Shown here in pieces: positions 9,153 through 60,880 of a DNA stretch of 64,000 nt. Source of the stretch: Cliona cf. orientalis (taxonomy: Eukaryota > Porifera > Demospongiae > Clionaida > Clionaidae). Every line of letters begins with the position of its first letter. Position 1 is the first letter of the stretch. Under the pieces are notes generated by a model. It did not search any database and was not told where the DNA came from. It was given only the letters and a program-made list of their open reading frames with translations. The translations under genes and the position numbers were made by a program. The stretch lies in the NCBI GenBank assembly GCA_963930775.1, contig OZ005696.1:1550001-1614000 (forward strand), read 5' to 3'.

Positions 9153-9162
9153 GCGCATGCGC
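9153..9162. promoter_or_regulatory. NRF-1-like palindrome GCGCATGCGC
   Basis: This perfect 10-bp palindrome is 67 bp upstream of the ATG of receptor 6681-9086. It matches the known animal NRF-1 consensus. Related motifs occur upstream of several other receptors in the array. Confidence 0.45.
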
Positions 9163-9185
9163 GATAGGAACCGTTTGTGGTTATC

Positions 9186-9344: not shown

Positions 9345-9453
9345 ACTATACTTTAATATTATCTCATCATAATAATGGTCTAGCTCAGTACTGACTCTAT
9401 GATAAGGAGCTGTGTGCAAATTATCTTCATGGCATATAAAATTGTGAATAGTA

Positions 9454-11850: not shown

Positions 11851-12300
11851 GACTGACATTGATGTAGCTATGGACCGGTCTGATGTCAGGTAGAAACTAT
11901 AGTTTTTGTATTGATGATACTTTCCAGTATATGTATGACTCGTATAGCTCACGCTCGGAACCTGAATACATAATCAATATTGTGTATTAAAACAACAGGA
12001 ACAGAAAATCTGCAGTGTCCCAATGTATTGATAAGGTTCCTTAACATAACCTACTATATTTTCATAACTCTGGGCTGTTATTTTTAATATGCCCTTATAA
12101 TAAATAGCTCTCCCTATGTAGCTAATCTGCACATGCGCATGCAGTCTCATTATAGCTATATACACAGCACACGTGTCATGTGCAAGGAATATAGAATACA
12201 AGTAATAACACATAGTATAATAATAAGCTTAGTATTACAGTAAACTAAAAGTAGCTACTAGTTAATAATATATTATAGTGATGGGATTTGTTGAATGGTT
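11851..12300. other. Intergenic, upstream of receptor 9454-11850
   Basis: This AT-rich spacer of about 450 bp contains ACATGCGCATGCAG at about 12131-12144, a motif of the same TGCGCA/GCGCATGC type found upstream of the neighbouring receptors. No convincing gene is seen. Confidence 0.45.
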
Positions 12301-14697: not shown

Positions 14698-14952
14698 TGT
14701 AACAGTACTCCACCACTTCTGTGATTGTTTATACTGTAGTATTTCAATATAAATTCACAATGCATGGCATCACTTCCGTAATATTATTGCTGTTGCATGA
14801 GCAACACGCATTACTAAATAAACGGAACTGAGGAGGCGTTTGCTTGCATAAATTATTAATTTTTATACTACTGAGCCCACCCACGCATGCTAATTATCGC
14901 TCATAATCAGCTGTGGTTGTATGAATGAATAAATATATAGTCATAATTAATT

Positions 14953-17367
14953 TTAATATGGGACAGCACTTTTTGCTTGATGACATTTGAAACAGACATT
15001 ATGAAGTGACTTAATCTGTTTATGAATTTTGAGTATGGGGTACAGAGGGGGTAGGAAGAGCAATAGACACGAAAACAGCACAGATAGGCTGAGAATAACA
15101 TTCAAGGCTACAAACTGAAGTATGTTGATGTCGATGACAAAGTACAAGAGAAGACCAGTGGTTAGAAATCCAGAGAGCAAGTAGACAAGCAGCATGATAC
15201 TCTGCGTCTGAAAATCCTTATGCGGTATGCTGCGCGTGAAAACGGCCAGCCAGAATGAAAACACCATGAGGGAGACCGGGAAGAGAGAAGAAAGTCCAAA
15301 CCATATGAAGTAGCTATCCTGAAAACATTCGACAGTTATTCTTTTCATCAATATGATTTCCTGTGTGACTCCTTCGCTGTCTAGTACCTTGTGAAAATAC
15401 GGATCAGTTGTATTCTCAGGTCTGAATGGCTCGATAGTTGCAGATAGTATCATCACTACTAGATTTAGTGTGGAGAGTACAAGAACGATGGATAGCAAGA
15501 ACCAGTCAGAGATGAACCTGCCGGGGTTCTTAAAGTGTACGTAAATGCGATAGAGTCTCCATGTGCGAGCACAAATTGGTCCAAATAAAAGGGTCCCCCC
15601 AATCATTGATACTGCATTCAGCACGTGAAAGAGGTGACATTCAGCTGATGCAGATATAATACCACTCAGGCACTCAACTATGAAATTGATAAATCCAGCA
15701 AAAGCAAGACTATAGCAACCAAAGAATGCAATGTGACTTAGTTTTGTGCTTGACGCCTTGACTGACTTCTGGTTGTGATAAATGATAGTCAGAATGTGTA
15801 GAGTCAAAGTCACAATGAAACTCAATACGACGACTGATAAGAAAATCCCCCCTATTGTTAACGAGACTGCAACAATAGTTGATTCTGTTCTGAAAGTTGC
15901 ACTGATAAATTTACCATTCGTTGATGTCAAAACAATTGTATCATTAAGCTTTGCATAGTAGGCAATTAAGTTCATTTGCCTATTAGAATCGATCTGGTAT
16001 ACGTTTACGTTCCTGATAACATAACCAGATGAATGGTTGTACATTATCCTTCCAGACAATCCTTTGAAGTCTTGCTCCAGTAAATTTGCCTTTAAAATAT
16101 CTGCAAGTTCACTGCCGTATACATGACCTGTACTGTTTATCAAATTTGTAGAAGAATTCAAGGCTAGTGCCATTGACCAAACTGCATCAAAGAAAGAAGC
16201 TGCCCAGAAGCTTGTCTGGATTTGCGACAGAGAATTCTTATTGTACTCCGAAATCCTCTCTTTGTATATTTTCAAGAACTCTTCATGTGAAAGTCCAATA
16301 TCTGTTGTACTTTCATCGCTTTCGAGCTGGTAGTGTATGATAAGTGATCCATTTATCACTGTAGCGATATCACTTTCTGTACAAGTGAGAGTCTCGTTCA
16401 CATACTTGAAAGAGAGGGGCTGTATTTCGTCAGTCACTCTAGAAATAATAACGAACTGGTATATCGGATAGAGTATTTCAAGGTGGTGCGCTAGACAGAA
16501 TATTCTGCTGAGAAAATCTGGGCCCACAAACAAGAATATCACTCGAATATTGTCCTGAACTAGAACATCTAGTGGTATGAACGTGTCATAAACTGCCCAA
16601 GAAATGTACGAGAGATTTGCACTCCTCAATTCCTCTTCAAACCTTCGAACTGTCGAGGCATAGTACAGTCTGGATTCATCATAGAGCACACCCACAGGCT
16701 TCCAGTTATTCTGCCTCATGAGTGCTAGTGCTGCTTGCACAAATACTTCGGTAGAATCGAGTGTACCAAAAGAGTAGTTATACGTTGTGCGATTGGTGAG
16801 AAGGAGCGAGCCTGCAATGTGTATCGTAAGTATGGATAATTCCCTTCGTCCAGTTAAGGCAGATATGGTTAAGGCTGAGTTGGAGCAACCTGGCCCTACT
16901 ATACCTAAAGGACTTCTGGCAGGCTCACTGTACAGCACACTCTCAAAGAATGCTTGATTAGCTTTCGACCGGATATTGCAACCGCTATCACCTTGAAGGA
17001 GCTCGAGCGTGTAGCCGCAGAGAAGGGCATCATTCTTGTTGATCAGCTCCACGGCGAGCTGTTCGGAAAGGTAGAGAGTTGGTCCTTCGTCCCAGGATGG
17101 TTGTAAAGCAGCTCTTCCTTCGGGATCGGGGTAGGGAAGCAGCGACAGAATGTAGATCGTACTATTATTGCTTTTACAACTCGAATCCTTCTCGTAGTTT
17201 GTTGTATTTGAAGCAGTCTTTGATGCGCTGACAGTCGCGTTGAACGAACATGTGGTACTATTTGTATCCTCCGATAGACTTCCACAGCTTTGAACTTCCA
17301 CAATGTAGAGGCATGTTAGTATCAGTACCAAATCTGCTAAAAAACATAGCGTAGATTTGAGCCTCAT
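14953..17367 (-). CDS. Diverged GABA-B-like class C GPCR, 804 aa
   Basis: This is the most diverged complete receptor of the array. The signal peptide is followed by a Ser/Thr/Asn-rich segment with several N-glycosylation sequons, then a Venus-flytrap domain and a 7TM domain (about 491-779). It keeps the VGPGCSNS loop, SFGTLDST, KASSTKLSHIAFFG and ARTWRLYRIYVHF. The motif after TM5 is ATIEPF rather than WTxxDP. The extracellular loop before TM6 is longer, and the tail ends without RKTSxDALL. It lies at the end of the array, head-to-head with the HELZ gene, with starts 418 bp apart. The divergence may mean a different ligand or partner subunit, but this is inference. Confidence 0.9.
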   Translation of the reverse strand: MRLKSTLCFLADLVLILTCLYIVEVQSCGSLSEDTNSTTCSFNATVSASKTASNTTNYEKDSSCKSNNSTIYILSLLPYPDPEGRAALQPSWDEGPTLYLSEQLAVELINKNDALLCGYTLELLQGDSGCNIRSKANQAFFESVLYSEPARSPLGIVGPGCSNSALTISALTGRRELSILTIHIAGSLLLTNRTTYNYSFGTLDSTEVFVQAALALMRQNNWKPVGVLYDESRLYYASTVRRFEEELRSANLSYISWAVYDTFIPLDVLVQDNIRVIFLFVGPDFLSRIFCLAHHLEILYPIYQFVIISRVTDEIQPLSFKYVNETLTCTESDIATVINGSLIIHYQLESDESTTDIGLSHEEFLKIYKERISEYNKNSLSQIQTSFWAASFFDAVWSMALALNSSTNLINSTGHVYGSELADILKANLLEQDFKGLSGRIMYNHSSGYVIRNVNVYQIDSNRQMNLIAYYAKLNDTIVLTSTNGKFISATFRTESTIVAVSLTIGGIFLSVVVLSFIVTLTLHILTIIYHNQKSVKASSTKLSHIAFFGCYSLAFAGFINFIVECLSGIISASAECHLFHVLNAVSMIGGTLLFGPICARTWRLYRIYVHFKNPGRFISDWFLLSIVLVLSTLNLVVMILSATIEPFRPENTTDPYFHKVLDSEGVTQEIILMKRITVECFQDSYFIWFGLSSLFPVSLMVFSFWLAVFTRSIPHKDFQTQSIMLLVYLLSGFLTTGLLLYFVIDINILQFVALNVILSLSVLFSCLLLFLPPLYPILKIHKQIKSLHNVCFKCHQAKSAVPY

Positions 17368-17784
17368 ATCCGATGTCTAGTCTAGTCTATCTCGCACCCT
17401 TAGGGCTATCATCTTTTCACTTGAAACATTGCAGCAAAATTGCACTCCGACTCAGCAGTTTATATGAATCGATTGCATGGTTGATTGCCGATATCGCGGT
17501 AAAAAATTTACTAGTCCTGCCCACTTGCACATGCGCAATGTAGACTATTAGCATTATGTATACGCGGGTAAAGGCACGTGACCTGCATGTGTCGCAATAA
17601 TTAAGCACAGCTGACATGACTGGATGGATGCTCTCTTCGTGGTTTTAGAGTGTGGCTCTAGATCATCAGAAGTAAAGTATTAAAATGAGTAGAAAGTCTC
17701 TTCTATTTTTAACGATTTATAGCGGATATATTTGTGACTATCTATTTCATACTTCCTTCTTCTTCAAGAACGTTTTCATCAAAG
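17368..17784. other. Divergent promoter region between a receptor and HELZ
   Basis: This spacer of 417 bp separates the start of the 14953-17367 receptor (minus) from the HELZ start (plus). It contains GCACATGCGCAATG near 17526-17539, which resembles motifs upstream of other receptors. No other features are seen. Confidence 0.5.
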
Positions 17785-46300: not shown

Positions 46301-49300
46301 TTTCATCGTGGTGCTCAACAAGGCCACAACCGCTGAGAATTTCACTAACATTCTTGATAAAGTGCTCGAGATGAGCGAGGATGCTAAGGTGTATGGTTCA
46401 GTGCAGAAGATCGCCAAAGCTTTCACTGTCAAGCTATCAGAGATTGCTGTTGAAACTGTAAGTTGTATCCATAGCTATGCTAGGAGCTGTGTACAATTAG
46501 GCAACAATTGATTAAGCTAGCTGAAAATTTAGAAGGTCACAAGACTTCATAGTAATGAACTAAGCTATTAAACTGAAGATTCAGAAGGTCGTAAATTATA
46601 TTGAATCATCATGCATGCACACGCAAAGATTTCTTACTATCTATCGATCATCTTATGATTATTGTACGTTATAGGTTCGCTCTATTCCTGAGGTAGACTT
46701 TATAGAAGAGGAGACTATGGCTCATGGAGACCAATTGGACTGGCATACGGACCGCCTTGACCAGTTAACCCGCCCACTTGATGGCTCCTACCAACCAATC
46801 GGAACAGGCGAAGGAGTCGACATCTATATCCTAGACACGGGTATCAACTACAACCACCAGGAGTTCGAAGGTCGTGCCAAGTACAGTGGGTATGATCCAA
46901 CAGACTTAATTACCCCACAGCGGATCCAACGAGGGGCTGATTGTCACGGACACGGCACTCATGTAGCTAGCTTAGCTGGTGGCAAAACTTACGGAACGGC
47001 GAAAAAGGCTCGACTCTACAGCGTCCGTGTGTTGAACTGTAACAACGCTGGACCCTGGTCTGGAGTACTGAACGGAATCGATCATGTTTCACAAGTGATA
47101 GCTGAGCGTGGGAGGCCGGCTATAGTGTCAATGTCTCTTTCGGGACCATTCCAGCGTGCGGTCACTGATGCTGTTCAAACTCTTCACTCTGAAGGTATTG
47201 TTGTAGTTGTGGCTGCTGGGAATGACTTTGCGGATGCTTGCCAACGCACGCCAGCCAGCTCGTCGTATGCTATCACAGTGGGAGGAAGTGCAGATGGCGA
47301 TGGAATTTACTCTTTCACGAGTTACGGTTCATGTGTGAACATTTTTGCTCCTGGTGCGAGCATCCGAGGTGCTGACCACACCTGTGTGTCGTGCTCTAAA
47401 ATTATCAGCGGTACTTCAATGTCCACCCCGATGGTGAGTGGAGTTGCTGCTATTCACCTGCAGAGAGAGCCTAGACTGAGCCCTATGGCTGTGATGAATA
47501 GGCTAATAACCTCAGCTTCCACGGACCAGCTCGATTTCAGCAGGATTCCCAGCAACTTTCGCTCTCTTACCCCAAATCGTCACTTATACATACCAGGTAA
47601 GGGAACTACTATATCAAGTGAATATCTTAGCTTGGTTACCTCAGATTTATCCTAATATTAGGATGTTTGATCATAATGACTTCACAGCCACTACTATGGC
47701 TTCACTGGCTGCTATAGTAAATTGACATCATTTCAATTATCCCCCAATATGGTCACTTTAAGCATATTGAGCAGCGATATTTGATATCCCATACAATGTC
47801 ATATAAGTGGATGTCCTCTTTGCCCAGCAACCAAAGACTCATTTTGCTGTATACTTTAATCTCCGTTTGATTTTTCACTCCTAAAGCTTCAGTGGTGCCA
47901 CTACTGTTTGCAGCAGTGATCATAATCTGTGGTCAGCCTATTTAGGAAACTTAACAATGCCTGTGCTTAAATATAGTATGAGCTAGCTCATTCAAAATGC
48001 GACGTCCTAAAGCAAGAACAGGCTTAGGCTTATCTCCAACTATTTCTGAGTTATATTTATATTTGTTTGGAGCTAATTAATTTTTCATATTATACTGTAT
48101 TGAAAATTTCTCCATTTGTGCACAGGAAATTGTGGTGGTGCATTATCTGGCTCCTCTGGATCATTCCAGTCCCCTAATTACCCTTCTAATTACTCATCCA
48201 ATCTCCACTGCACGTGGACCATCACCGCTGCAGCTGGTGGGACCGTGCAACTGACGTTCTCCCGTTTTGTCACAGAAGCTACTTACGATCTTGTGAACGT
48301 GTGTGAAGGTTCGGTCTGTGCCCCAAGCTCTCGCTGGGCACAGCTATCTGGTCGTCCCAGCCAGTCAAACTTACGCTACTCTTCAGTTGGAAATGTCCTA
48401 ACTGTTGAACTCATCACAGATGGAATATTGGAATTCAGTGGGTTCACTGCCACGTACACGACCTCTACTTCGACTGTTACCACAACAACTAATCCGCCCT
48501 CTGAACCCCCGAGTGGTGAACCTCCAAGTGGTGAACCTCCTACCACTCCATCTTCCACCACTCCACCTCCCACTGCCATCGTTACCCCTCAGATTATCAA
48601 CAACTGTGACGCTGACAAGGAGGTTGCCTCTCGTGTGCCCATTATTGTCTCGGAAATCATCAATGAAGCTAGCACCGTTCTCCAGGAGTTGATTGCCGAT
48701 TCTCTCGAGTCTATGCTCACGACTAGGATCCTCGGTCAGGTTTCGAGCTACCCTGCCAGCAGCTGTAAACAATTAGCTGATGTTCGAGCCACTGATAATC
48801 TCGAGTCTGGCTACTACTGGGTGAAAAGTAGCAACGGTACGTCAATAAAAGTCTTTTGTGATTTGAAAAACGGTTTTACTACGAGTGATCAAGGATGGAT
48901 GAGGGCAGGGTATCTGAACATGACTGAGGAAGATAGTGAATGCCCAGGAAACCTACGATTTTTTCAGTCTCCAAAGCGAAGTTGTGGTCGAGGACAAGTC
49001 AGTGCGGCCATTGGATGTACCTCAGTCTACTATCCCACACACGGTATCAGCTATAGACAAGTATGTGGTAGGGTGACGGCTTACCAGATTGGTACCACGA
49101 ATGCTTTTTTTGCATACGGCTATGATTCAGCAGTGACTATTGACGGTTACTACGTTGATGGCATTAGCATCACCCATGGATCTTCGCCACGTCAGCATAT
49201 TTGGACATTCGCAGCTGCCAGAGATGAAATTAGCCCAGATTCTCACATCTGTCCGTGTACCAACTCAAAAGGATCCTCATCCACTTCTCCCATACCCCCT

Positions 49301-51755
49301 TACGTTGGACAGAACTATTTCTGTGAAACGGGCACTGCTACTTCAGCTGGAAATGGTGTCTTTTATCGCAATGATCCACTCTGGGACGGATTTGGGTGTG
49401 GTACTGGAAGCAGCTGCTGTTCTGGCTCGAATCCTCCATATTTTTGCGTCGATCTTGGAGCGGATGTGAGCGATGATGTTGAGCTGAGGGTGTGTGGAAA
49501 TGAACACAGAAATTCTGAAGATACACCTTTGGAACTGGTTGAACTTTATGTTCGCTAGACGATTAACTAGGTATAGATAGAGCAATAAACAAGCTGGACT
49601 TGGGTGATGAAAATTATAATAATATGCACAATTTTACGACTTGTACAAAATAAATGCTGTATCATTGCATTTAATTGTCTTGAAATCAAAATAAATTTTG
49701 CCTGCACACCAGAAAATAATTGTGTTGCTTCTAATTCAAGAGAATTACGTTAAATGTATAGCCAAAAATTTGTAGCTATAGTTATACTGTTATAGTAGAT
49801 GAGCAAGAACTGGGTATCAAAAGTTATTGTGATCAATCTTCACAGAACTGCCATCAACTTTCGGAGCTCTACCTTGCTGGACCAAGTGTAAATGGTACAG
49901 GAGTTATATATGCCCATGGACTGTACGATCATTTGATCACACTGCATGTATTCGTTCATTTGCAGTGAAAACCTCTGACCTGATGTCACTGGGAAACTTG
50001 AAACAGCTGGAAATTCTGAAACTGAGCAAACAGATTGCTTGCAAAGATGAAGTGCTCTCTACTATAGCAGGAAACTGTCCGAACCTAAGGTGCAGTGTAG
50101 CATATTAATTAATTTGTACTATCGGGAGCCTATGAGCTGCCCTCTTGCTACGCTTCATCACACGGCTCATATAGCTAGGCTCCTTGTGCCATATGAAATT
50201 GATAATAAAATTTCCATCTATACAATTTTTATGTATATATTAATGTACATGTATGACATTATAGAGTCCTGTTTTGTGAAGCCTGTTATGATATCACTGA
50301 TGTGGGAGTGAAGAGTTTGACATCCTGCGAGCAACTCAACTACCTCAACATCAGCTACTGCCATCACGTTAGTAGCTACACTGTATAAGTCCTACCTACC
50401 TACATAGCATAGTAAGGTCTAATGTTGCTACTGTGGGTGTTTGTCGAAGTTTACCGTAAAATTTACTATAAGACTTACATCTATAGCTATGTTCTAATAA
50501 TAATTCTTATTATTGTTACTGTGCGCTGTTATGTAGCTGTCAGAAAGATCCATTCATTTGGAGTTTTATTTGCATGCAGGTATCCGATGAGGGATTGATG
50601 AGACTATCGGGGAAAGGAAAATTGGAACACCTGATCATCAAGGCATGTCAAGCCATTACAGATTGTGGTACGTAATATAAATATGTTAAGTATTGGAATC
50701 AGACATTGAAATATTTACTATTCCATTCCACATTCTGCTCTGCTGTGCATGCAGCATTGTGTTGCATTGCTGAGAATTGTTTGGAATTGAAGGAGCTGGA
50801 CATCAGTGGCTGTCTGAGTGTCACTAACAAGACACTCTATGCCTTTCAAGAGAGTCTGCTGCACATGAGGGACCCTGCTGGTGAAGGAGCGAAGCCTAGC
50901 CAATTCTCAATCATAGTTGGAGGTACATTTTGTCAGTAATATGAATTTTTGTACACTATACCATATAAAGAATTTATTGTCAAGATTATACAGTAACTTT
51001 ATAATAATTATTATTAATTTGGCGTTTTACGTGGTTCACAATGTCATAAGTATAATTGTAACCTTATACTCAGCTCTAGTTGATCTCTCCGTAAATTATG
51101 CACTTGAATTGGTTATAGAAATACATATCGAATCTTTTTAAAGATACCTAACAGATTGAGAGGTATGTATTCATGATGCTATTGTAACACATGCAGGTAC
51201 TAGCATAGAGCGGGTTGTGGCAGTGCAGTTTGCAACAGATACAGGAGCCAGCCTAAGCCTCCATGATCTCTCAGTGAGGAATCTCTCGGCTGACTATCAT
51301 GACCACTTCCTGGACTGTAAGTCCAATATCAGAGTAGCTACTATTAATTTTAATCATAAGGGCATATCCGTAATTATTAAAACAATGTCATGTTTACCGC
51401 GTAACCTAGTAGTGTAGCCACCAAAAACTCTTCACTCAACACGCTCACGCCCATACAATGCCGTGCGCAGCATACTGCGAGTAATTGAATATCGATGTAT
51501 AGTTGATGTATTTTGTTTGACTTCAATTCAGTTTCAGAAGAGTGTTGGGAGGATGACAATCAACCGAGTTTCCTTGCAGAACCAGAGAAGTTGGTTGAAT
51601 CGAAGTTGGAGTTCATGGAGAGAGAGGCGGAGCTTATGGTGGGCGACCATGGCTCCTCCCACTATGCCCAGAAAGCGGAGGACTTTCTATTAGCTGACGA
51701 TCCAGCCCTTTTTAGTGACGAATTTTCAGATCCTGAAGACTGGGGCGTTCTATAG
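37378..51755 (+). CDS. RRM + F-box + leucine-rich-repeat protein, 652 aa, 18 exons
   Basis: Exons: 37378-37467, 38007-38101, 38300-38383, 38570-38719, 38791-38870, 38932-39021, 39129-39242, 39325-39422, 39504-39544, 39614-39689, 39758-39922, 49846-49894, 49966-50089, 50265-50367, 50580-50667, 50755-50922, 51197-51316 and 51532-51755. All phases agree and sum to 1959 bp. Residues about 20-90 form an RRM (RNP2 VFVGNI, RNP1 RGIAFVTF). A basic and acidic linker follows, then an F-box at about 140-185 (LTDDVLHIIFSYLELKDRI). FBXL-type LRRs run to about 575 and an acidic tail ends DPEDWGVL. F-box proteins bring substrates to SCF ubiquitin ligases through SKP1, and the LRRs usually bind the substrate. 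The RRM implies RNA binding. I do not know this combination in standard animal FBXL proteins. Intron 11 is 9.9 kb and holds other genes. Confidence 0.85.
37743..37821. repeat. Foldback hairpin element, 32-bp perfect arms
   Basis: Arms 37743-37774 and 37790-37821 are perfect reverse complements beginning TAGCCTCGTGCCCATCCC, with a 15-bp spacer. It lies in intron 1 of the F-box gene and is of the same family as 19074-19141 and 63391-63426. Confidence 0.75.
40447..40634. mobile_element. MITE family B, copy 3
   Basis: The left end AAGTGGGAAATTTTCGAGGG and the right end (TTCCCACTATACAGTA) are inverted. The interior resembles 35305-35487. It lies in the large intron of the F-box gene. Confidence 0.65.
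41144..42140 (-). pseudogene. Secreted single-domain protein with a frameshift (copy A)
   Basis: The frame starting at 42140 encodes a signal peptide and the same N-terminal region as the intact copy at 43605-44597. It loses frame near 41937-41940, where four extra bases (CGAG on the plus strand) are present. The remaining domain continues uninterrupted in the next frame down to a stop at 41144. That part keeps all landmarks of the intact relative: CGRTLNTGGC, VCGRVISYQ, GVSITHGSSPRKHIWSFA, PLWNGSGC and NNPPWFC. It could be a recent pseudogene, an allele or a sequence error. The domain resembles an uncharacterised secreted domain that I recall from coral skeletal-matrix proteins, but this is unchecked. 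It is nested on the opposite strand inside the F-box gene intron. Confidence 0.75.
42342..42435. repeat. Perfect 43-bp inverted repeat (hairpin)
   Basis: Arms 42342-42384 and 42393-42435 are exact reverse complements around an 8-bp loop. The sequence CCAAATTATCTCTTA within the arms recurs at about 42468 and 43170. It lies about 200 bp upstream of the ATG of copy A on the minus strand. Confidence 0.85.
42650..42790. repeat. Duplicated segment related to 45095-45230
   Basis: The segment shares an ordered series of words (TGGGTTTAGTTATA-like start, GGGCCCTCGTCTTTC versus GGCCATAGTCTTTC, ATGCATTTG, CCCAGCATCTGTTC, TATGGACCTT-like, CACAGTA) with 45095-45230. It directly abuts the truncated gene copy B, which marks a segmental duplication with deletion. 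Confidence 0.55.
42789..43001 (-). pseudogene. Truncated copy B of the secreted single-domain family
   Basis: From the ATG at 43001 it encodes the family signal peptide (MKYTLILLASL...) and about 65 matching residues up to SSYTSPTQS. It then diverges and stops at 42789. The break falls at the point where copy A carries its 4-bp insertion. The 5' flank (TACCCCCTCTCTTGCTGGTCC) matches the flanks of copies A and C, so promoter and 5' end were duplicated but the domain was lost. Confidence 0.75.
43605..44597 (-). CDS. Secreted single-domain extracellular protein, 330 aa (intact copy C)
   Basis: A single exon encodes a signal peptide (about residues 1-18), a short Cys-containing segment with NCNCNNPQ, and a region (YQWIKNSTFNPVMVYC) that resembles the start of fibrinogen-like or collagen C-terminal domains. 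A Cys-rich globular domain of about 220 residues follows, with CGRTLSRGGC, KVCGRVIGYQ, GVSITHGSSPRKHIWSFA, YIPSFVGNDYFC, DPLWNGHGC, NNPPWFCKQLP and DDIEVRVCAD. The same domain ends the protease at 46158-49558. I recall similar domains in uncharacterised coral skeletal-matrix and cnidarian proteins. No function is known to me. A TATA-like TATATAAAAG (minus strand, about 44707-44717) lies 110 bp upstream. The gene is nested in the F-box gene intron. Confidence 0.82.
   Translation of the reverse strand: MKYTLILLASLLVAATSAQEESNSSACQGAISTPTFNCNCNNPQSTECPDIPQTHEASSYTSPAQSCEEVAQSKPYQLPSYQWIKNSTFNPVMVYCTATTQCSSCSQGDVGWMRIANFDMSDPNQDCPQGFKQFSTPTRSCGRTLSRGGCQSMHFKTQGVEYSKVCGRVIGYQVGSTSGFYTPRLPNVIDNAYIEGVSITHGSSPRKHIWSFATALQSVTGSHGPIHVCPCAISNSQMGQYIPSFVGNDYFCDSGNHATSTSISTVYGSDPLWNGHGCSGRDACCTFNNPPWFCKQLPQSTTDDIEVRVCADEAANNEDSPIRLVELYAK
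44598..46157. other. Nested intergenic region between copy C and the protease
   Basis: It holds the minus-strand promoter of copy C, the segment at 45095-45230 related to 42650-42790, and two tandem 43-bp units at 46000-46042 and 46043-46085 (each with AGTGTATA-AAGTCACTGGAT). The first unit contains a TATAAAA box about 145 bp before the protease ATG. No further gene is seen. Confidence 0.55.
46158..49558 (+). CDS. Secreted subtilisin/proteinase K-like protease with CUB and matrix-type C-terminal domain, 884 aa
   Basis: Three exons (46158-46457, 46675-47596, 48126-49558) join in phase to 885 codons including the stop. Order: signal peptide (1-27); inhibitor I9 propeptide (about 30-115); S8A peptidase (about 130-400) with Asp154 in ILDTG, His193 in GHGTH, Asn283 in AAGND and Ser348 in SGTSMSTP; CUB domain (about 408-515, CGGALSGSSGSFQSPNYPSN); Thr/Pro linker; a SCKQLADV...GYYWVKSS fibrinogen-like segment (about 619-650); then the Cys-rich domain also found in copies A and C (GISITHGSSPRQHIWTFA, DPLWDGFGC, NPPYFC). 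The catalytic residues are complete, so it is predicted to be an active extracellular peptidase. It is nested in the F-box gene intron on the same strand. The ATG at 46137 is an alternative start in the same frame. Confidence 0.88.
49559..49845. other. Remainder of F-box gene intron 11 downstream of the protease
   Basis: This AT-rich stretch of about 290 bp contains several AATAAA-like signals (near 49583, 49648 and 49689) suitable for the protease 3' end. The acceptor for F-box exon 12 is at 49844-49845. Confidence 0.5.
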
Positions 51756-53335: not shown

Positions 53336-53343
53336 TATATAAA
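53336..53343 (+). promoter_or_regulatory. TATA box of peptide gene 1
   Basis: TATATAAA lies 108 bp before the ATG. All four family members have the same octamer at 91-111 bp upstream. Confidence 0.65.
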
Positions 53344-53443
53344 GAAGCAGACCAGGTCCACGAATCCAACAGCTGAGATTGGAGTGCAAAGAGCAAAAAG
53401 AACAATCAACTCGATCATCTTCAGCATTTGCCTTCAAGACAAA

Positions 53444-54002
53444 ATGAAGTCTTCTCTCGTTATTTTTCTTATTGGAGCCATTGTTGCTGTTGCTTGTGCT
53501 GCTCCATCAAGCAAGGTCTCAATGCAGGATGATGATGGGGATCAACTAGCCAAGACAGCTCGTTGGTTTGGCATTGCCAAGAGAGTTATCGGCGGTATCA
53601 ACCATGCTGTCAACGGTGGAGACGATATAGCTCTGAACCAGGATGATGATGATGATGATGATGACCTGCTGAGTCAGGCTCTTCTTGACCGCATGATGTC
53701 AGTTCAAGATGATGATGATGACGATGACAAACTAGCTAAGACAGCTCGTTGGTTTGGCATTGCCAAGAGAGTTATCGGTGGTCTCAACCATGCTGTCAAC
53801 GGCGGAGACGATGACAATGATGACCTGCTGACTCAGGCTCTTCTTGACCGCATGGTCTCAATGCAAGATGATGATGATGACGATGATAACAAGGTAGCCA
53901 AGACAGCTCGTTTGAGGCTTGGTAAACTTTTCAGTGGCGCCGCCAGAGGCCTCCACTCTATTTTCAGTGGAGACGACGACGACAAGACAGCTCTGAATCA
54001 GA

Positions 54003-54036
<34 letters not shown>

Positions 54037-54344
54037 GGTAGCGAAGACAGCTCGTTTCCTTGGTAAACTTATCAGTGGTGCCGCCAGAGGCCTCCACTCT
54101 CTTTTTAGTGGAGACAACGACAAGACAGCTCTGAATCAGATGGATGATGATGATGATGATGATGACCTGCTGACTCAGGCTCTTCTTGACCGCATGGTCT
54201 CAATGCAAGATGATGATGATGACGATGATAACAAGGTAGCCAAGACAGCTCGTTTGAGGCTTGGTAAACTTTTCAGTGGCGCCGCCAGAGGCCTCCACTC
54301 TATTTTCAGTGGAGACGACGACGACAAGACAGCTCTGAATCAGA

Positions 54345-54378
<34 letters not shown>

Positions 54379-54482
54379 GGTAGCCAAGACAGCTCGTTTC
54401 CTTGGTAAACTTATCAGTGGTGCCGCCAGAGGCCTCCACTCTCTTTTCAGTGGAGACAACGACAAGACAGCTCTGAATCAGA

Positions 54483-54514
<32 letters not shown>

Positions 54515-54547
54515 AAGGCCATAGCTCAGTTCCACTTATTTGGTTGA
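53444..54547 (+). CDS. Secreted acidic-spacer / cationic-peptide precursor 1, 367 aa, six cores
   Basis: The start is the ATG whose product begins MKSSLVIFLIG, as in all paralogs. An upstream in-frame ATG at 53384 precedes a poor signal sequence. After the signal peptide (about 1-20) and an APSSKVSMQDDDGD lead, six Lys/Arg-rich amphipathic cores alternate with runs of 4-11 Asp. Two cores are of the AKTARWFGIAKRVIGG type. The other four are of the AKTARLRLGKLFSGAARGLH or KLISGAARGLHSLFSG type. LLTQALLDRMVSMQ segments lie in three of the spacers. The 342-bp unit 53822-54163 is repeated almost exactly at 54164-54505. The tail is KAIAQFHLFG. The layout fits a precursor cut into several cationic helical peptides, with Asp runs neutralising them until release. 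Antimicrobial, cytolytic or signalling roles are inference, and I know no named family. Confidence 0.85.
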
Positions 54548-55109
54548 TTTTGACAGTTATTGAGATATCAAGATATTGCAGATTAGAACTGTGGTACTAT
54601 AACAGTTGCTATTGTAACTGTAACTATAGGCATCAGAATCGTGTGAATATTATTATATTATATAGATTTGCTCTCTGACGTATTAGTCCAAGAGACTAGA
54701 TGGAGGCATGCCGTGGTATTTTGTTAATTAATAGCTTAAATAATAGTACTGTGCATTAAAATCAATGCATTGTAGTGCTAATAACAAATCAAGGATTGCA
54801 AAAGTATCAAGTATGCCTATAAAGATAATAATATTATCATTATTATACTCAGTGATTATTGTTGCTACCCTCTCCCCACACTTAAAAGCAATGATAATAG
54901 AGATTATAAAACTGCAAATAATATTTTTATATTAGCTAATCTAAGAGCTAATTAGCTAATTGTGTGTATACATAGATCTATACATGTGTACGTACGCACA
55001 TAATATGATATTGTGTACTGTCATGTATATACATTAATGTTATTAGCAGGTTTCTATGCAAAAAAGTGCATACCAGTTATACTTACTAGATGAGCGGTAT
55101 AGACATGCA
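54548..55109. other. 3' flank of peptide gene 1
   Basis: The first ~150 bp (TTATTGAGATATCA..., AGATTAGAACTGTG...) are conserved after the stops of genes 2 and 3, so they are probably 3' UTR. The rest is AT-rich with ATATAT and ATGTAC runs, with no gene seen. Confidence 0.55.
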
Positions 55110-55514
55110 GTTAGCCCTTCAGCCATGTCATCATCTTCGTCCCCTTCAGTAGTGACATGATCAAGCACTGCAGATCATCATCATCATCATCCATCTGATT
55201 CAGTGCTACCTCCTGTTGTGGGCTGTTAATTAAGCAATCAGCAGCATCAGTGAGGCGGGAAAGATTTGAAATTTAGCCACTTTGGCTACAGTGGAGTAGC
55301 TATATACTCAGTTTGTCTTCCTCATATCTATTATGGAAGAGCATAATAATATTATGTCATGGCAAAAATGGCACCAACAAGAGGAATAGTAAGAAAAGAC
55401 TTCATTGCTGTCTTGAAGCTCCAGATCCGAGGTGAGGTTGAAGATGAGTTTCTTTTTATTTATCTTTGATCCAACCACTTGAGATATGCATGAGCCCATC
55501 TGTCTGTTTATATA
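55110..55514 (-). pseudogene. Decayed opposite-strand copy of the peptide precursor (1)
   Basis: On the minus strand a TATATAAA box (55507-55514), a 5' leader like that of gene 2, and an ATG beginning MKSFLTIPLVGAIFAM are recognisable. A stop codon follows at once. Further down, fragments reading EVALNQMDDDDDD remain at about 55160-55215. It is therefore a broken, inverted member that faces away from gene 2. Confidence 0.7.
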
Positions 55515-55559
55515 GGAATGTCAGCATCTTTTCAGTCTGTTTTTGACCCACGTGACAAG

Positions 55560-56320
55560 GTTATTATGAGAAAACACCACCAGATTACGATTGAAAGTCT
55601 GCTGTAGACAATAGTTAGTGTCGTGACAGCTAGGGATTAAAATTAGAGGACATCACACCAATAGATTACACTTGAAAAGCCTGCTGGGGACAATAGACTA
55701 AGTGTCGCGACAGGGATTAAAAATTAGAGGACATTTACACCAGTAGATTACGATTGAAAGCCTGCTTGGACAATAGTTAGTATCATGACAGTGACTAAAA
55801 TTAGAGGAAGTTACACAACTGAAAAGCCTGCTGGGGACAATAGTTAGTTAGTGTCGCGACAGGGATTTAAATTAGGGGACATTTAGCTACACCAGTAGAT
55901 TATGCTTGCTTGGGACAATAGTTAGTGTCGTGACAGGGACTAAAATTAGAGGATATTTAGCTACACCAGTAGATTACGATTGAAAGCCTGCTGGGGACAA
56001 TAGTGTCGTGACAGGGACTAAAAATAGAGGACATTTATGCCAGTAGACTACAATTGGAATTGATATCACGACACTAGGTTTTTCATTTAATATGTAACTT
56101 CCTCTAGTTTCCCTGTCGCGACACTATTGTCCCCAGCAGGCTTTCAATCGTAATCTACTGGTGTAGCTAAATATCCTCTAATTTTAGTCCCTGTCATGAC
56201 ACTAACTATTGTCCCAGGCAAGCGTAATCTACTGGTGTAGCTGAATGTCCTCTAATTGTCGCGACACTAAGTTAAACTATTGTTCCCAGCAGGCTTTCAA
56301 TCGTAATCTGCTGGTATTCT
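55560..56320. repeat. Palindromic array of ~75-bp repeats (array 1)
   Basis: About six direct units (core CAGTAGATTACGATTGAAAG, then GGGGACAATAGTTAGTGTCG and a CGACAGGGA end) occupy 55560-56045. They are followed by about three units in the reverse orientation up to about 56315. Units contain the palindrome TGTCGCGACA and a CCAGCAG/CTGCTGG inverted pair. The array lies between a decayed minus copy and peptide gene 2. Confidence 0.8.
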
Positions 56321-56335
56321 CCTCATATAATAATA

Positions 56336-56403
56336 TGTTTGTCACAGTCACAGCAGCTACTGTAATATTATTATTACAGTAGCTGCTGTGATTGTGACAA
56401 ACA
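56336..56403. repeat. Inverted repeat upstream of peptide gene 2, 32-bp arms
   Basis: Arms 56336-56367 and 56372-56403 are reverse complements at 31 of 32 positions (core CAGCAGCTACTGTAATA), with a 4-bp loop. One arm-like AGCTGCTGTGA..TGA element is also found before genes 3 and 4. Confidence 0.75.
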
Positions 56404-56429
56404 GAAGTAATCATAGACACTGACACTCC

Positions 56430-56437
56430 TATATAAA
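56430..56437 (+). promoter_or_regulatory. TATA box of peptide gene 2
   Basis: TATATAAA lies 110 bp before the ATG. The context ATCATAGAC.CTGAC.TTCCT is shared with gene 3 and partly with gene 4. Confidence 0.65.
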
Positions 56438-56539
56438 GAGATAGATGAACTCAGATCTCCATCACATCTCAAGTGGTTGGATCAAAGATAAATAAAAGAG
56501 AAACTCATCTTCAACCTCACCTCGGAACTTCAAGACAAA

Positions 56540-56914
56540 ATGAAGTCTTCTCTCATTATTCTTCTCCTTGGAGCCATTGTAGCTGTCGCCTGTGCTGCTC
56601 CATCAAGCAAGGTCTCAATGCAGGATGATGATGGTGACAAGGTAGCCAAGACAGCTAAATGGTTAAGCATTGCCAAGAGAGTTATCGGCGGTCTCAACAC
56701 TGCTATCAACGGGGAGAAACTAGCTCTGAATCAGGATGATGATGATGATGATGGTGATGACCTGCTGAACCAGGCCGCTCTTCTTGTTGACCGCATGGTC
56801 TCGATGCAAGATGATGATGATGACGACAAGCTAGCTCTGAATCAGATGGATGATGATGATGATGATGATGATAAGGCCAAAGCTCAGTTTGGTCTTCACT
56901 TCCACTTTGGTTAA
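56540..56914 (+). CDS. Acidic-spacer / cationic-peptide precursor 2, 124 aa, one core
   Basis: The signal peptide (MKSSLIILLLGAIVAVACA) and APSSKVSMQDDDGD lead are followed by one cationic core (AKTAKWLSIAKRVIGG). Two LALNQ-Asp spacers flank an LLNQAALLVDRMVSMQ segment, and the tail is KAKAQFGLHFHFG. The C-terminal Gly is conserved in all four family members and could be an amidation donor or simply part of a spacer. The 5' leader up to about 100 bp upstream is highly similar to gene 3 and to the decayed minus copy at 55300-55514. Predicted secreted; function not known. Confidence 0.82.
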   Translation: MKSSLIILLLGAIVAVACAAPSSKVSMQDDDGDKVAKTAKWLSIAKRVIGGLNTAINGEKLALNQDDDDDDGDDLLNQAALLVDRMVSMQDDDDDDKLALNQMDDDDDDDDKAKAQFGLHFHFG

Positions 56915-57709
56915 CTTTGACAATTATTGAGATATCAGGATATCGCACAGATTAGAACTGTGTTACTATTACTATTGTGATTGTAACTATTGTATAGGCA
57001 TCAGAATTGTGTGAATATTATAATCTCTGACATTGTAGTTTTGTAGTTTAAGAGACTAGATGAGGCATGCCGCGGTATTGCAATGAATACATTTGAGTAC
57101 AGAACCCTCACTGCTAGCTACATGCATTCATGCATGTACGCATATGACTCATGTACATGTGTAGCATGGCTCATGCACTGTGTATGCTTGTTTAGTATCG
57201 AACTACATACTCTGCACCTGAACATGGTTACGGTACTGTTCAAGTCTCTATAGGAGTAGGGGGAAGGCACCTGGCTACATCACAATATAAATTGAAAGAT
57301 GAATTATGCACTTGATAACGACTGCCGGCCTATTACTGCATTGACAACTGACCAGAATGGCAAACAGTCATGTAGCTGAGGTATATACTAGGTACCTTGT
57401 AAACACAGACTGCCAACCAGGCAACAGCAACACCACTGAGCAGGACTTAACATGACCACTATTCCTTTATGCCAAGTAGCTATACCTCAAATGCATACTT
57501 TTCTCCCAGACGACTCTTACCATTAAATCTTAGCACAGCTAGCTAAGTCGCTATAGTGAATAATTCTTGTGTGCGTACATATAATATTATTATGGTACAT
57601 GTGTATGTACCACAATTATTATGACGTTATGTGTGTATGCGTACATGTACGTTAATGCTGATTTCTATGCATACCAGTAAGTTGGATGTCTGTAGTGTAG
57701 GTACACAGT
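56915..57709. other. 3' flank of peptide gene 2
   Basis: The first ~150 bp match the 3' flanks of genes 1 and 3. The rest holds GTACATGTG-rich runs and no recognisable gene. Confidence 0.5.
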
Positions 57710-58080
57710 TGGCCCTTCAGCCTTAAGCTTGTCATCATATTTGTCCTCTGCAGATCAAACGCTGCGCATACAGATTGTCACCATCACCATCATCATACAT
57801 CCGATTCAGTGCTACCTCCTGTTGTTGACTGTTAATTAAGCGATCAGTAACATCAACCCGAGTCCTAATAATGTGAAAGAATTGAAAATTAACTTAGCTA
57901 CTTTGTCTGCTCAGTACATCGTCACCATCATGATCATAACTATTACGGAAGAGCATATGCTGTGGCAAAAATGGCTCCAATGAGAACATGAGAGAAGACT
58001 TCATTGCTGTCTTGAAGGTCCAAGGTGAGGTTGAAGATTAGTAACCACTCGAGATATGACCCCAACTGTCTCTTTATATA
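57710..58080 (-). pseudogene. Decayed opposite-strand copy of the peptide precursor (2)
   Basis: A minus-strand TATATAAA (58073-58080), a family leader, an ATG with AAGTCTTCTCTCATG and an EVALNRMYDDGDGDN fragment near 57780-57830 are recognisable. Frameshifts and a missing core show it is not functional. It has the same arrangement as 55110-55514. Confidence 0.65.
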
Positions 58081-58149
58081 GGAATGACAGCATCTTAATT
58101 TTTGGTCTCTGTACTTAAGCTTCAGTTTGTCACAAGATACTATTATAAT

Positions 58150-58630
58150 ATTATTATGGCAACAGATTATGATTGAAAGCCTGCTCGGGACAATAGTTAG
58201 TTAGTGTCGTGATAGGGATTAAAATTAGAGGACATCACACCAGCAGATTACGATTGAAAACCTGCTGGGGACAATAGTTAGTGTCGCGACAGGGATTAAA
58301 ATTAGAGGACATCACACCTGGTCCAGTGGATTACACTTGAAAGCTTGCTGGGGACAATGGTTAGTGTTGTAGCAGGAATCATAACTATCTCGATTTCAAT
58401 CCTAATCCACTGGTGTGATATGCTCTAATTTTAATCCGTCGCGACACTAACTATTGTCCCCAGCAGGCTTTCAATCGTAACCTACTGGTGTGATTTTAAT
58501 CCCTGTCGCGACACTAACTATTGTCCCAGCAAGCTTTCAATCGTAATCTACTGGTGTGATGTCCACTAATTCTAATCCCTGTCACATAATATTGTCCCCA
58601 GTGGGCTTTCAATCATGATCTGTTGGTGTT
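58150..58630. repeat. Palindromic array of ~75-bp repeats (array 2)
   Basis: About three direct units (58150-58375) and four inverted units (58390-58630) share the same consensus as array 1, including GTCGCGAC and CTGCTGGGGACAATAG. It lies between the decayed minus copy 2 and peptide gene 3. Confidence 0.78.
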
Positions 58631-58729
58631 CTCCCAGTATAATATTATAGCAGCTGCTGTGAATATGATAAACAGAATTGAGTAGCTATATATCGAGATA
58701 AAAAAAGTGATCATAGACGCTGACGTTCC

Positions 58730-58737
58730 TATATAAA
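58730..58737 (+). promoter_or_regulatory. TATA box of peptide gene 3
   Basis: TATATAAA in the context GCTGACGTTCCTATATAAAG lies 111 bp before the ATG. Confidence 0.65.
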
Positions 58738-58840
58738 GGGACAGGTAGGCTCACATCTCCATCACATCTCAAGTCGTTGGATCAAAGACAAAAATATAAA
58801 GAAACTCATCTTCAATCTCACCTTGGAGCTTCAAGACAAA

Positions 58841-59287
58841 ATGAAGTCTTCTTTCGTTATTCTTCTCATTGGAGCCATTGTAGCCGTTACATTCGCTGCT
58901 CCATCGAGCAAGGTTTCAATGCAGGATGATGATGGGGATAAACTAGCCAAGACAGCTCGTTGGCTTGGCATTGCCAAGAGCGTTGTCAGAGGCCTCAACT
59001 CTGCTCTCAACGGTGAGAAACTAGCCCTGAATCAGATGGATGATGATGACGACGATGACCTGCTGAACCAGGCTCTTCTTGACCGCATGGTCTCGATGCA
59101 AGATGATGATGATGATGATGATGATGATAAGGTAGCCAAGACAGCTCGTTGGCTTGGCATTGCCAAGAGCGTTGTCAGAGGCCTCAACTCTGCTCTCAAC
59201 GGTGAGAAACTAGCTCTGAATCAGGATGATGATGATGATGATGATAAGGCCAAAGCTCAGTTTGGTCTTCACTTCCACTTTGGTTAA
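58841..59287 (+). CDS. Acidic-spacer / cationic-peptide precursor 3, 148 aa, two cores
   Basis: The signal peptide (MKSSFVILLIGAIVAVTFA) and APSSKVSMQDDDGD lead are followed by two identical cationic cores (AKTARWLGIAKSVVRG + LNSALNGE). An Asp-rich spacer with LLNQALLDRMVSMQ separates them, then comes a second Asp run and the tail KAKAQFGLHFHFG. The in-frame ATG at 58823 would add six residues before the signal peptide, and 58841 is preferred by family comparison. The two cores also agree closely in DNA, showing recent unit duplication. Predicted secreted; peptide release and activity are inferred. Confidence 0.83.
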   Translation: MKSSFVILLIGAIVAVTFAAPSSKVSMQDDDGDKLAKTARWLGIAKSVVRGLNSALNGEKLALNQMDDDDDDDLLNQALLDRMVSMQDDDDDDDDDKVAKTARWLGIAKSVVRGLNSALNGEKLALNQDDDDDDDKAKAQFGLHFHFG

Positions 59288-59624
59288 CTTTGAGAGTAAC
59301 TGAGATGTCAGGATATCGAACAGATTAGAACTGTGTTACTGTTACTTATTGTGATTGTAACTATAATATAGGCATCAGAATTGTAATAATTATATAGATT
59401 TGCTCTCTGACACTGTATTAGTTCACAAGACTACGTAGATGGAGGCATGCGCATGCATTCCGCGGTATTGCATTGAAGTGATACTATTAATAGAGTAGAT
59501 AATTTACCTGTTTCAAATAATTCTGTGCAGTAATATTAATGCATGTCATTACTAATAAGAGATTGAGGATTAAGTATGACCATGAACTTATCAGTTCATT
59601 GAAAGCAATACCATACTTACAATA
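59288..59624. other. 3' flank of peptide gene 3
   Basis: A conserved family 3' UTR-like stretch lies at 59288-59460, then AT-rich sequence. No gene is seen. Confidence 0.5.
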
Positions 59625-59910
59625 TATATCATCATCATCAATAATCCATTGGATTCAGAACTACATCCTGCTGTTATCCTCCTGAGGGCTTTTAATTAAT
59701 TTTAATGATCAACAAGGGTCCTATTTCAGTAATGGGAAAGAATTGAAATTAGCCACTCTGGCTTGGCTACTATATTATTATCGTAACCATAATATCGGAA
59801 GGGTATAATAATGTGCCATGATGGTAATTAAATAGCCACCAACGAGAAGAATAATAATAAGCAAAGACTTCATTGTTGTCTTGAAGCTCTGAGGTAAGAT
59901 TGAAGATGAT
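59625..59910 (-). pseudogene. Decayed opposite-strand copy of the peptide precursor (3)
   Basis: This is the weakest of the remnants. On the minus strand a leader like that of gene 2 (AATCATCTTCAATCTTACCT), an ATG with AAGTCTTTGCTTATT, and a short ATGATGATGATA tract near 59627-59640 remain, with stops between them. Confidence 0.5.
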
Positions 59911-59974
59911 TGACTTTTTTATCTTTGAGCTAACAGCCTGCATGCAATGTCACGGAGCTCTGTTCTTCAGTTTA

Positions 59975-60375
59975 TCAAACACTAGCAGATTATGATTGAT
60001 AGCCTGCTGGAGATAATAGCTATTATAATTAGTGTTGTGACAGTGCACGTGATCAAAATTTGAGGATTATTATTGCACCAGCAGTTTATCGAAAGACTGG
60101 TGGGACAATAGTTAATGCCGTGACAGGGATCATAATCCACTGGTGTAATTTCCACTAATTTTAATCCCTGTCGCGACACTAACTATTGTCCCCAGTAGAC
60201 TTTCCATCATAATCTACTGGTGTGATGTGGCTACTTTTAGACTAATATTAATCCCTGTCACGACACTAACTATTGTCCCAGTAAGCTTTCAAACGTAATC
60301 TGCTGGTGTGATGTCCTCTAATTTTGATACCTGTCGTGACACTAAATAGCTATTGTCTCCAGCAGGCCTGCTTTC
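59975..60375. repeat. Palindromic array of ~75-bp repeats (array 3)
   Basis: About two direct units and three to four inverted units share the consensus of arrays 1 and 2, again between a decayed minus copy and an intact plus gene (gene 4). It is more diverged than arrays 1 and 2. Confidence 0.72.
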
Positions 60376-60518
60376 GTTTGTAGTAATATTATTATCTATT
60401 GATCGATATTTCCTCATACTATGTAGCTAGGTAGCTAGCTGCTGTGATTATGACAAACAGAGCTTAATAGTTACTGTAGCTATGGAGATCGGAAAAGTGA
60501 TCATGATGCTGACGTTCC

Positions 60519-60526
60519 TATATAAA
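60519..60526 (+). promoter_or_regulatory. TATA box of peptide gene 4
   Basis: TATATAAA in the context GCTGACGTTCCTATATAAAC lies 91 bp before the ATG. Confidence 0.65.
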
Positions 60527-60616
60527 CACAGATGGGCTCATATCTCCATCACATTGCAACTGGTAGAATCTAAAAGAAAGTCATCTAATTATTCCTCACA
60601 TTGGAGCTGCAGACAA

Positions 60617-60880
60617 ATGAAGTCGTCTTTCATTATTCTTCTCATTGGAGCCGTTGTTGCTGTTGCCTTCGCTGCTCCATCAAGCAAGGTCTCAATGCAG
60701 GACGATGATGGGGATAAACTAGCCAAGACAGCTCGTTGGCTTGGCATTGCCAAGAGCGTTGTCAGAGGCCTCAACTCTGCTCTCAACGGTGAGAAACTAG
60801 CTCTGAATCAAGATGATGACGACGATGATGGTGATGACAAGGCCAGAGCTCAGTTTGGTGTTCACTTCCACTTTGGTTGA
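60617..60880 (+). CDS. Acidic-spacer / cationic-peptide precursor 4, 87 aa, one core
   Basis: This is the shortest member: signal peptide (MKSSFIILLIGAVVAVAFA), APSSKVSMQDDDGD lead, one core (AKTARWLGIAKSVVRG, same as in gene 3), LALNQ, a single Asp run and the tail KARAQFGVHFHFG. It shows the minimal unit of the family: lead, core, acidic spacer, tail. The open frame reaches upstream to 60482, but only the ATG at 60617 begins a signal peptide. Predicted secreted. Confidence 0.82.
   Translation: MKSSFIILLIGAVVAVAFAAPSSKVSMQDDDGDKLAKTARWLGIAKSVVRGLNSALNGEKLALNQDDDDDDGDDKARAQFGVHFHFG

Follow-up and report, generated by a model that had tools for sequence, protein, structure and literature searches.

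What is made by a row of four small genes that alternate long aspartate runs with short lysine- and arginine-rich peptides? The question is raised by positions 53444-60880 of a 64,000-nucleotide stretch of DNA (the window; C8:1550001-1614000 of a 216.8-Mb genome), where four intact genes, each a single open reading frame (ORF), follow one another on the plus strand. The answer favoured here, with a probability of roughly 0.6, is that they encode secreted, acid-masked polyproteins from which helical antimicrobial peptides would be cut and perhaps amidated, and which would also release a C-terminal pyroglutamate (pGlu)-F...F-amide as by-product or co-messenger. The genes and their promoter elements are:

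53336-53342, + strand: TATA box of gene 1
53444-54547, + strand: gene 1, 367-amino-acid precursor; its six cores are WFGIAKRVIGGINHAVN, WFGIAKRVIGGLNHAVN and two copies each of LRLGKLFSGAARGLHSIFS and FLGKLISGAARGLHSLFS
Starts at 56430, 58730 and 60519, + strand: TATA boxes of genes 2-4
56540-56914, + strand: gene 2, 124-amino-acid precursor with one core (WLSIAKRVIGGLNTAIN), preceded by AKTAK
58841-59287, + strand: gene 3, 148-amino-acid precursor with two identical WLGIAKSVVRGLNSALN cores
60617-60880, + strand: gene 4, 87-amino-acid precursor with a single WLGIAKSVVRGLNSALN core

Each gene runs from ATG to stop in a single frame and therefore requires no intron. A TATATAA box is located 98-111 bp upstream of every ATG, and between TATA box and ATG the genes are 74-88% identical to each other, i.e., they have a common promoter and 5' untranslated region (UTR). 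All four proteins start with a common signal peptide, as judged from sequence, and an APSSKVSMQDDDGD lead, and residues 20-33 are invariant. In a genome-wide search with the leader, the four window leaders were recovered at E ≤ 1.9e-18 and the next match only at E = 0.13, which excludes chance as an explanation for the shared leader. A match at C8:6284179 (E 0.51) was dropped; its frame ends after 59 residues. The original prediction of four same-strand genes with a common signal peptide, lead and Asp runs was confirmed, and its core counts of 6, 1, 2 and 1 for genes 1 to 4 were correct.

The precursors are built from modules with a fixed order: an Asp run, a joint of 1-2 residues with [L/V]AKTA[R/K], a core of 17-19 residues, Gly, an ALNQ(M) tag and again an Asp run. 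The Gly at the end of the core is followed by Gly and acid, by acid or by Glu-Lys. Genes 1-3 carry an extra Leu-rich spacer module (e.g., DLLNQALLDRMVSMQ). The predicted AKTAR lead-in to the cores was found in general, but not in gene 2, where the joint is the Lys variant AKTAKWLSIAK. In core copies 3 and 5 of gene 1, a second Arg follows two residues after the Arg of AKTA[R/K], and the same gene contains an internal tandem duplication of 342 bp with 98% matches. Beyond the signal peptide no cysteine is present in the window proteins. Over their full length, the precursors of genes 1 to 4 carry net charges of -56, -16, -13 and -3.

A helical and charge analysis, suggested together with the original prediction, showed that the cores are amphipathic, in contrast to the four spacer peptides tested. 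Hydrophobic moments as helices (muH) range from 0.49 to 0.57 for the six distinct cores and were matched by 0-1.8% of composition-preserving shuffles (p ≤ 0.018), while none of the spacers went beyond shuffles at 5% (p = 0.91, 0.75, 0.09 and 0.84). With the same script, magainin 2 and piscidin 1 gave muH values of 0.45 and 0.67, respectively, so that the window cores lie in that range:

53564-53614, + strand: gene 1 core 1, WFGIAKRVIGGINHAVN, muH 0.51, shuffle p 0.015
53750-53800, + strand: gene 1 core 2, WFGIAKRVIGGLNHAVN, muH 0.49, shuffle p 0.018
53912-53968, + strand: gene 1 core 3 (copy 5 at 54254-54310), LRLGKLFSGAARGLHSIFS, muH 0.54, shuffle p 0.008
54056-54109, + strand: gene 1 core 4 (copy 6 at 54398-54451), FLGKLISGAARGLHSLFS, muH 0.55, reached by 0 of 20000 shuffles
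56660-56710, + strand: gene 2 core, WLSIAKRVIGGLNTAIN, muH 0.52, shuffle p 0.0097
58961-59011, + strand: gene 3 core 1 (copy 2 at 59150-59200; gene 4 core at 60737-60787), WLGIAKSVVRGLNSALN, muH 0.57, shuffle p 0.0009

Being cationic and amphipathic as helices, the cores have the physical properties of linear amphipathic alpha-helical antimicrobial peptides. The Asp runs between them are written mostly with GAT (68 GAT and 25 GAC codons in gene 1) and partly as pure (GAT)n tracts of up to 32 nt, so their length may in part reflect repeat slippage. That the genes encode only a secreted Asp-repeat protein with a structural or calcium-binding role, with poly-Asp grown by slippage of a GAT microsatellite and no peptide function, is nevertheless scarcely credible: the runs are placed at module boundaries in all four genes, the cores are non-randomly amphipathic, and the mixed D/E/N spacers of related precursors elsewhere in the genome (see below) cannot arise from (GAT)n slippage alone.

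Precursors of host-defence peptides, such as those from frog skin, combine a fixed leader with a restless mature part. When pooled over the six gene pairs, the ratio of nonsynonymous to synonymous differences per site (pN/pS) was 0.35 for the signal peptide, 0.09 for the lead and 1.53 for the first core together with the R/K before it; cores 2-6 of gene 1 and core 2 of gene 3 did not enter this count. The contrast between core and leader gave p = 0.0025 in a codon-column permutation and was reached by 2 of 57 rotations. A conserved leader with a faster-changing mature part is thus found here as well, in a small sample and for the first core only.

The four window genes also end alike, with an Asp-rich stretch, KA-xA, QF...FG and the stop codon (XA-XA-QF...FG-stop):

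54527-54544, + strand: C-terminal peptide of gene 1, QFHLFG
56885-56911, + strand: C-terminal peptide of gene 2, QFGLHFHFG
59258-59284, + strand: C-terminal peptide of gene 3, QFGLHFHFG, after DDD-KA-KA
60851-60877, + strand: C-terminal peptide of gene 4, QFGVHFHFG

This peptide contains no Lys or Arg and, including the preceding AKA, is more like a strand than a helix (moment of 0.65 at 170 degrees, p = 0.004). Its presence in all four genes is a point for the main rival reading, precursors of signalling peptides. In this reading the acid runs and X-Ala steps would form the processing grammar of a sponge peptide-hormone family, and the C-terminal pGlu-F...F-amide, perhaps with the cores, would act via receptors. 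For cnidarian and placozoan preprohormones, acidic N-terminal processing, pGlu formation and the trimming of dipeptides have been described or proposed (PMC8638164, PMC6402141, PMC9545775). Signalling peptides are usually conserved, yet the first core changes faster than its leader, and the peptides have no basic convertase site behind them.

Precursors of the same plan were identified outside the window from weak matches, all of them single-ORF genes with acid runs and predicted secretion: one on C11, four on C13 and two on C10. The C11 protein is a His-rich/acidic repeat protein (AKAQHHFHFHFHWKK):

C11:5617561-5616491, - strand: AKAQHHFH(F/I)HFHWKK in six copies between acid-rich stretches and Leu-rich spacers

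Its alignment score to genes 2 and 3 was reached by none of 1000 window-shuffled sequences. It may be a silica- or metal-binding protein or a precursor of beta-strand peptides. Pfam matches of this protein to F_actin_bind (62.9 bits in four stretches, above cut-off) and, marginally above cut-off, to DUF7341 and DUF7699 were judged to be repeat or low-complexity artefacts, and homology to F_actin_bind was not accepted.

On C13, about 40 kb (C13:7489000-7528300) contain 13 secreted single-ORF genes, four of which have acid runs and cationic segments. One of these proteins carries AEAQ-WGFFKK(L/I)FRKVRRSKLLRRYGG in two copies and a diverged third. A broken copy is located at C13:7491508-7491924, near this gene with three WGFFK cores, and a 1310-amino-acid ORF inside the cluster (C13:7512057-7515989) looks retroelement-like by eye. 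The two precursors at C10:2963-2968 kb have strongly cationic segments, including FFSRLRRRLRRRLRKARKRI. Segments of the relatives reach a net charge of +18 per 20 residues within precursors that are acidic as a whole. In a profile comparison, the window and C13 leaders matched with 96% probability. In full-length alignments against window-shuffled controls, the scores of C11, C13_7489, C13_7523 and C13_7526 were reached by 0 of 500 controls for gene 1 and 0-7 of 500 for gene 3; alignment beyond controls thus holds for C11 and C13_7489 and nearly for C13_7523 and C13_7526. C10_2963 was borderline (10/500 and 12/500). C13_7528 (222/500 with gene 1, 189/500 with gene 3) and C10_2967 (292/500 and 67/500) did not align beyond shuffles; they were rejected as homologs of the window genes and kept only as precursors of the same plan. 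Significant helical amphipathicity was found for the C13_7523 core (p = 0.0003) and for one core of C10_2963 (p = 0.027-0.050).

The relatives also bear on what the acidic runs might do. That acidic spacers mask cationic helices was the leading idea of the original prediction, and this reading is strengthened by the amphipathicity of the window cores, by the contrast between leader and core and by the polycationic segments in other precursors of the genome. These segments resemble membrane agents, which is a further point against signalling peptides. Multi-peptide precursors with acidic spacers are also known for spider cytolytic peptides, and the same processing might deliver anti-predator or offensive cytolytic peptides into mucus, with animal cells as the target. 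The sponge peptide ASABF is reported to be both microbicidal and haemolytic (PMC3210614); no sequence feature of the window peptides favours eukaryotic membranes, and this use is considered highly unlikely.

With a query of demosponge silicatein alpha, an exon cluster was found at C12:3668294-3674493 (best identity 86%, the others 44-86%), which supports the predicted sponge origin and from which we take the host to be a siliceous demosponge. Full-length matches outside this cluster, likely cathepsin L-like, reach 48-54% identity; arrays of such single-ORF matches were seen at C16:190360-197657 and C16:4848099-4863160. In a siliceous host, silica or skeletal matrix proteins come into consideration, in which alternating polyacid and cationic or His-rich blocks would template spicule silica as in silaffins and glassin. 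Like those proteins, the precursors combine acidic segments with repeats that are cationic or rich in His; domains rich in His and Asp are described for glassin (PMC10772126), the C11 relative is His-rich/acidic, and the cationic segments of several relatives are not significantly amphipathic. Against this, the window cores, amphipathic as helices, contain neither a Lys-Lys pair nor a Ser-rich pattern like that of the repeated silaffin peptides, and a fast-changing core behind a fixed leader would not be expected of a matrix protein. A role in the skeleton is rated as improbable.

A second common feature emerged when the acid-run precursors were compared. The signature X-Ala-X-Ala-[Q/E]-[F/W/H/L/Y/I] is present in 10 of 11 (four in the window, one on C11, four on C13 and two on C10; C10_2963 lacks it), and most sites open a stretch that is cationic or rich in His. 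In total, 25 sites with 16 distinct 6-mers were found, whereas 5000 composition shuffles never gave more than 4 proteins with the signature or more than 5 distinct 6-mers. The sites are preceded by 4.36 acidic residues per 8 positions (background 1.67), and the excess of K+R+H over D+E in the following 12 is +3.68 (background -0.72). The motif was picked after these proteins had been viewed and repeats within a protein are non-independent, so these numbers describe the strength of the signature and are no unbiased test. The count of 11 leaves out nine other secreted ORFs of the C13 cluster, of which 0/9 have the signature and 0/9 acid runs; with these it becomes 10 of 20 ORFs. All counts leave out further short ORFs, among them one of 80 amino acids at C13:7519004 and a retroelement-like one. 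Unlike these sites, the window helices are preceded by AKTA[R/K], a site of the K-x-x-R type.

The signature, placed after acid and before net-positive stretches, adds to the case for signalling peptides, and its post hoc choice and the nine C13 ORFs that have neither motif nor acid runs take away from it. The earlier alternative, in which peptide signals are cut from their precursors at acidic sites, is thus supported in part by the QF...FG peptide and the signature, but is rated as clearly less likely than the antimicrobial reading. A combined view can be advanced only tentatively: one code, consisting of an acid run, X-Ala-X-Ala and Gln/Glu with an aromatic or aliphatic residue, might operate in a large group of demosponge precursors, represented here by four loci, and release defence peptides and pGlu...Phe-amide messengers together.

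Dipeptidyl aminopeptidases remove X-Ala steps, as in yeast alpha-factor and melittin, and a Gln exposed in this way can cyclise. Candidate enzymes for the other steps could be found in the genome: 13 proprotein-convertase-like (P_proprotein) exon matches and 6 exon matches to the M28 family, the latter at family level. The M28 family includes glutaminyl cyclase. An exon at C14:1296178 is PHM-like, with PHM as best PDB match (E 1.2e-6, compared with 0.059 for dopamine beta-hydroxylase). Processing of cnidarian precursors has been proposed to involve a dipeptidyl aminopeptidase (PMC8638164), and PAM is reported from Porifera (PMC9525235). Closer to the cluster, about 4-7 kb upstream, a Peptidase_S8 ORF (subtilisin-family protease) adjoins a CUB-domain ORF at 46675-49558 of the window; a role of the former in processing of the precursors is speculation.

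In the antimicrobial reading, the signal peptide would be removed first, and the Asp runs would keep the precursor net acidic and the helices neutralised during storage. An endoprotease may then cut after AKTA[R/K], a furin-like K-x-x-R site, and free 17-19-mers that start with W, F or L. The freed cores would end in Asn-Gly or Ser-Gly ahead of an acidic or Glu-Lys stretch, and the Gly could be converted into a C-terminal amide. Liberated, the amphipathic helices are predicted to insert into microbial membranes. For the C-terminal peptide, located after DDD-KA-xA or DD-KA-xA, trimming of X-Ala steps, cyclisation of Gln and amidation at Gly might together yield pGlu-F...F-amide.

The logic of these precursors resembles two known systems. 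Like the window genes, arminins of Hydra and arminin-like antimicrobial peptide precursors of Trichoplax, also from early-branching animals, have a signal peptide, a highly acidic segment, a basic region, Gly and acidic cleavage motifs. By description, arminins are acidic towards the N terminus and basic towards the C terminus (PMC11452194), whereas the window genes have up to six internal cores between acidic runs plus QF...FG. A highly acidic segment after the signal peptide is thus common to both; a basic C-terminal peptide with Gly for amidation is not, as the cores are internal and the last peptide is not basic. Cnidarian and placozoan preprohormones likewise contain several peptides per precursor and Gly for the amide, with dipeptide trimming proposed (PMC8638164, PMC9545775, PMC6402141). 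In them acid stands before peptides with a Gln start, giving pGlu, and such processing is stated as known from these two phyla only (PMC8638164). The sponge precursors come near this, but in 10 of 11 of them X-Ala-X-Ala separates acid from Gln/Glu, so that acid does not directly precede Gln. The window precursors differ further in their cationic, amphipathic cores and in what follows the peptides: FG is followed by stop and the core Gly by Gly, acid or Glu-Lys in place of a basic convertase site. As the cores are several and internal and no such site follows the peptides, membership in the known families tested fails. Frog-skin precursors of the dermaseptin/brevinin type also have a conserved signal and acidic pro-part, a variable cationic amphipathic mature peptide and amidation; usually a single peptide follows a Lys-Arg site in them, they are not known to carry poly-Asp runs, and the Pfam Aurein-like match is below cut-off. 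ASABF of the sponge Suberites is also a gene-encoded sponge antimicrobial peptide (PMC3210614, PMC12466427, PMC10608444), with a cysteine-stabilised defensin-like fold (PMC12466427, PMC10608444), unlike the window proteins.

Several results weigh against the antimicrobial reading. With +2 to +3, the window cores have only a modest net charge. The pN/pS contrast comes from four related genes and their first cores, those of genes 3 and 4 are identical, and Fisher tests on two single pairs, with counts rounded, gave 0.082 and 0.055; the faster change of the core is therefore only suggestive and short of proof of positive selection. Among the relatives, the segments of C13_7489 (p = 0.07, 0.45 and 0.42), the other core of C10_2963 (0.33 and 0.69) and C10_2967 (0.98) are not significantly amphipathic, and the similarity of leaders between groups is partly one of signal-peptide composition. 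Since alignment and amphipathicity hold for only some relatives, the window, C11, C13 and C10 precursors are best described as a group with one plan, a single family being unproven. Amidation capacity appears to rest on the one PHM-like exon, because among the 15 exon matches to PF03712 both loci that were read at length carry DOMON (55.7 and 57.6 bits; cut-off 32.7) and are presumably DBH/MOXD1-like and so not PHM. In addition, a mass-spectrometry survey of the sponge Ephydatia found no amidated peptides (PMC9525235).

The Pfam and PDB searches count on the same side. None of the four window proteins passed the curated cut-off of any Pfam family, in agreement with the original prediction, which recognised no described family; the nearest matches, CD225 (E 0.006) and Aurein-like peptide (E 0.07), stayed below it. 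In PDB, gene 1 had no match below E 0.1, and two window cores gave nothing up to E 10. With gene 3 as query, 50 pattern stretches in viral contigs and 139 in prokaryotic genome contigs were obtained, none of which was confirmed; neither was any of 432 prokaryotic stretches for an alignment query (A1), and the C13 three-core protein gave no stretch in viral contigs. As the collections outside this genome were viral and prokaryotic, absence from them says little on other sponges. Six peptide strings had no match in the literature main texts searched, and in topic searches no such sponge family was seen in titles and abstract starts among the matches listed.

The cluster has further features which, like the C-terminal peptide and the same-plan genes on C10, C11 and C13, were absent from the original prediction. 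The minus strand holds three degenerate precursor-gene copies. Each of them faces the next intact gene head-to-head and is separated from it by inverted arrays of a repeat of about 75 bp, with arms of up to 148 nt and 96% complementarity:

55529-55354, - strand: relic A, with promoter, 5' UTR and the start of the signal peptide, followed by stops; remnant of an Asp run at 55170-55211
55575-56315: inverted 75-bp repeat arrays between relic A and gene 2, 148-nt arms, 96% complementary
58095-57964, - strand: relic B; Asp-run remnant at 57777-57830
58164-58607: inverted 75-bp repeat arrays between relic B and gene 3
59934-59839, - strand: relic C; Asp-run remnant at 59627-59663
59979-60367: 75-bp repeat between relic C and gene 4; the reverse copies at 60148-60367 match the query

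The frames of the relics are shifted or stopped shortly past the signal peptide, and the TATA box is kept in two of the three. The forward arm at 59979-60136 is more decayed and evidenced by inverted-repeat pairs only. The repeat contains a TGTCGCGACA palindrome, and all 18 genome matches found fall within the cluster, in a search that passes over very frequent words and gives scores to the top candidates only. The arrays may be shared regulatory sequence or recombination seeds. At the other end of the window (1-17376), the minus strand carries a tandem array of long single-ORF receptors; the two ORFs scanned both match class C G protein-coupled receptor models (ANF_receptor and 7tm_3).

ASABF is among the few well-characterised antimicrobial peptides of sponges, the others being mostly cyclic peptides and depsipeptides according to a 2025 review (PMC12466427), and phoenixin and nesfatin were reported as the first sponge neuropeptides identified that the authors knew of (PMC9004410). 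The cluster is a variant of a known precursor logic, in a phylum for which little of that kind is described in the sources consulted. Sponge precursors that hold many cores and a readable processing signature predict exact peptide masses, and with them it becomes testable how sponges control microbes, and also whether peptide processing at acidic sites predates nervous systems. If one code indeed released both kinds of peptide, sponges would join Cnidaria and Placozoa as animals with acid-site preprohormone processing, and neuropeptide-like signalling would be tied in its origin to antimicrobial precursors.

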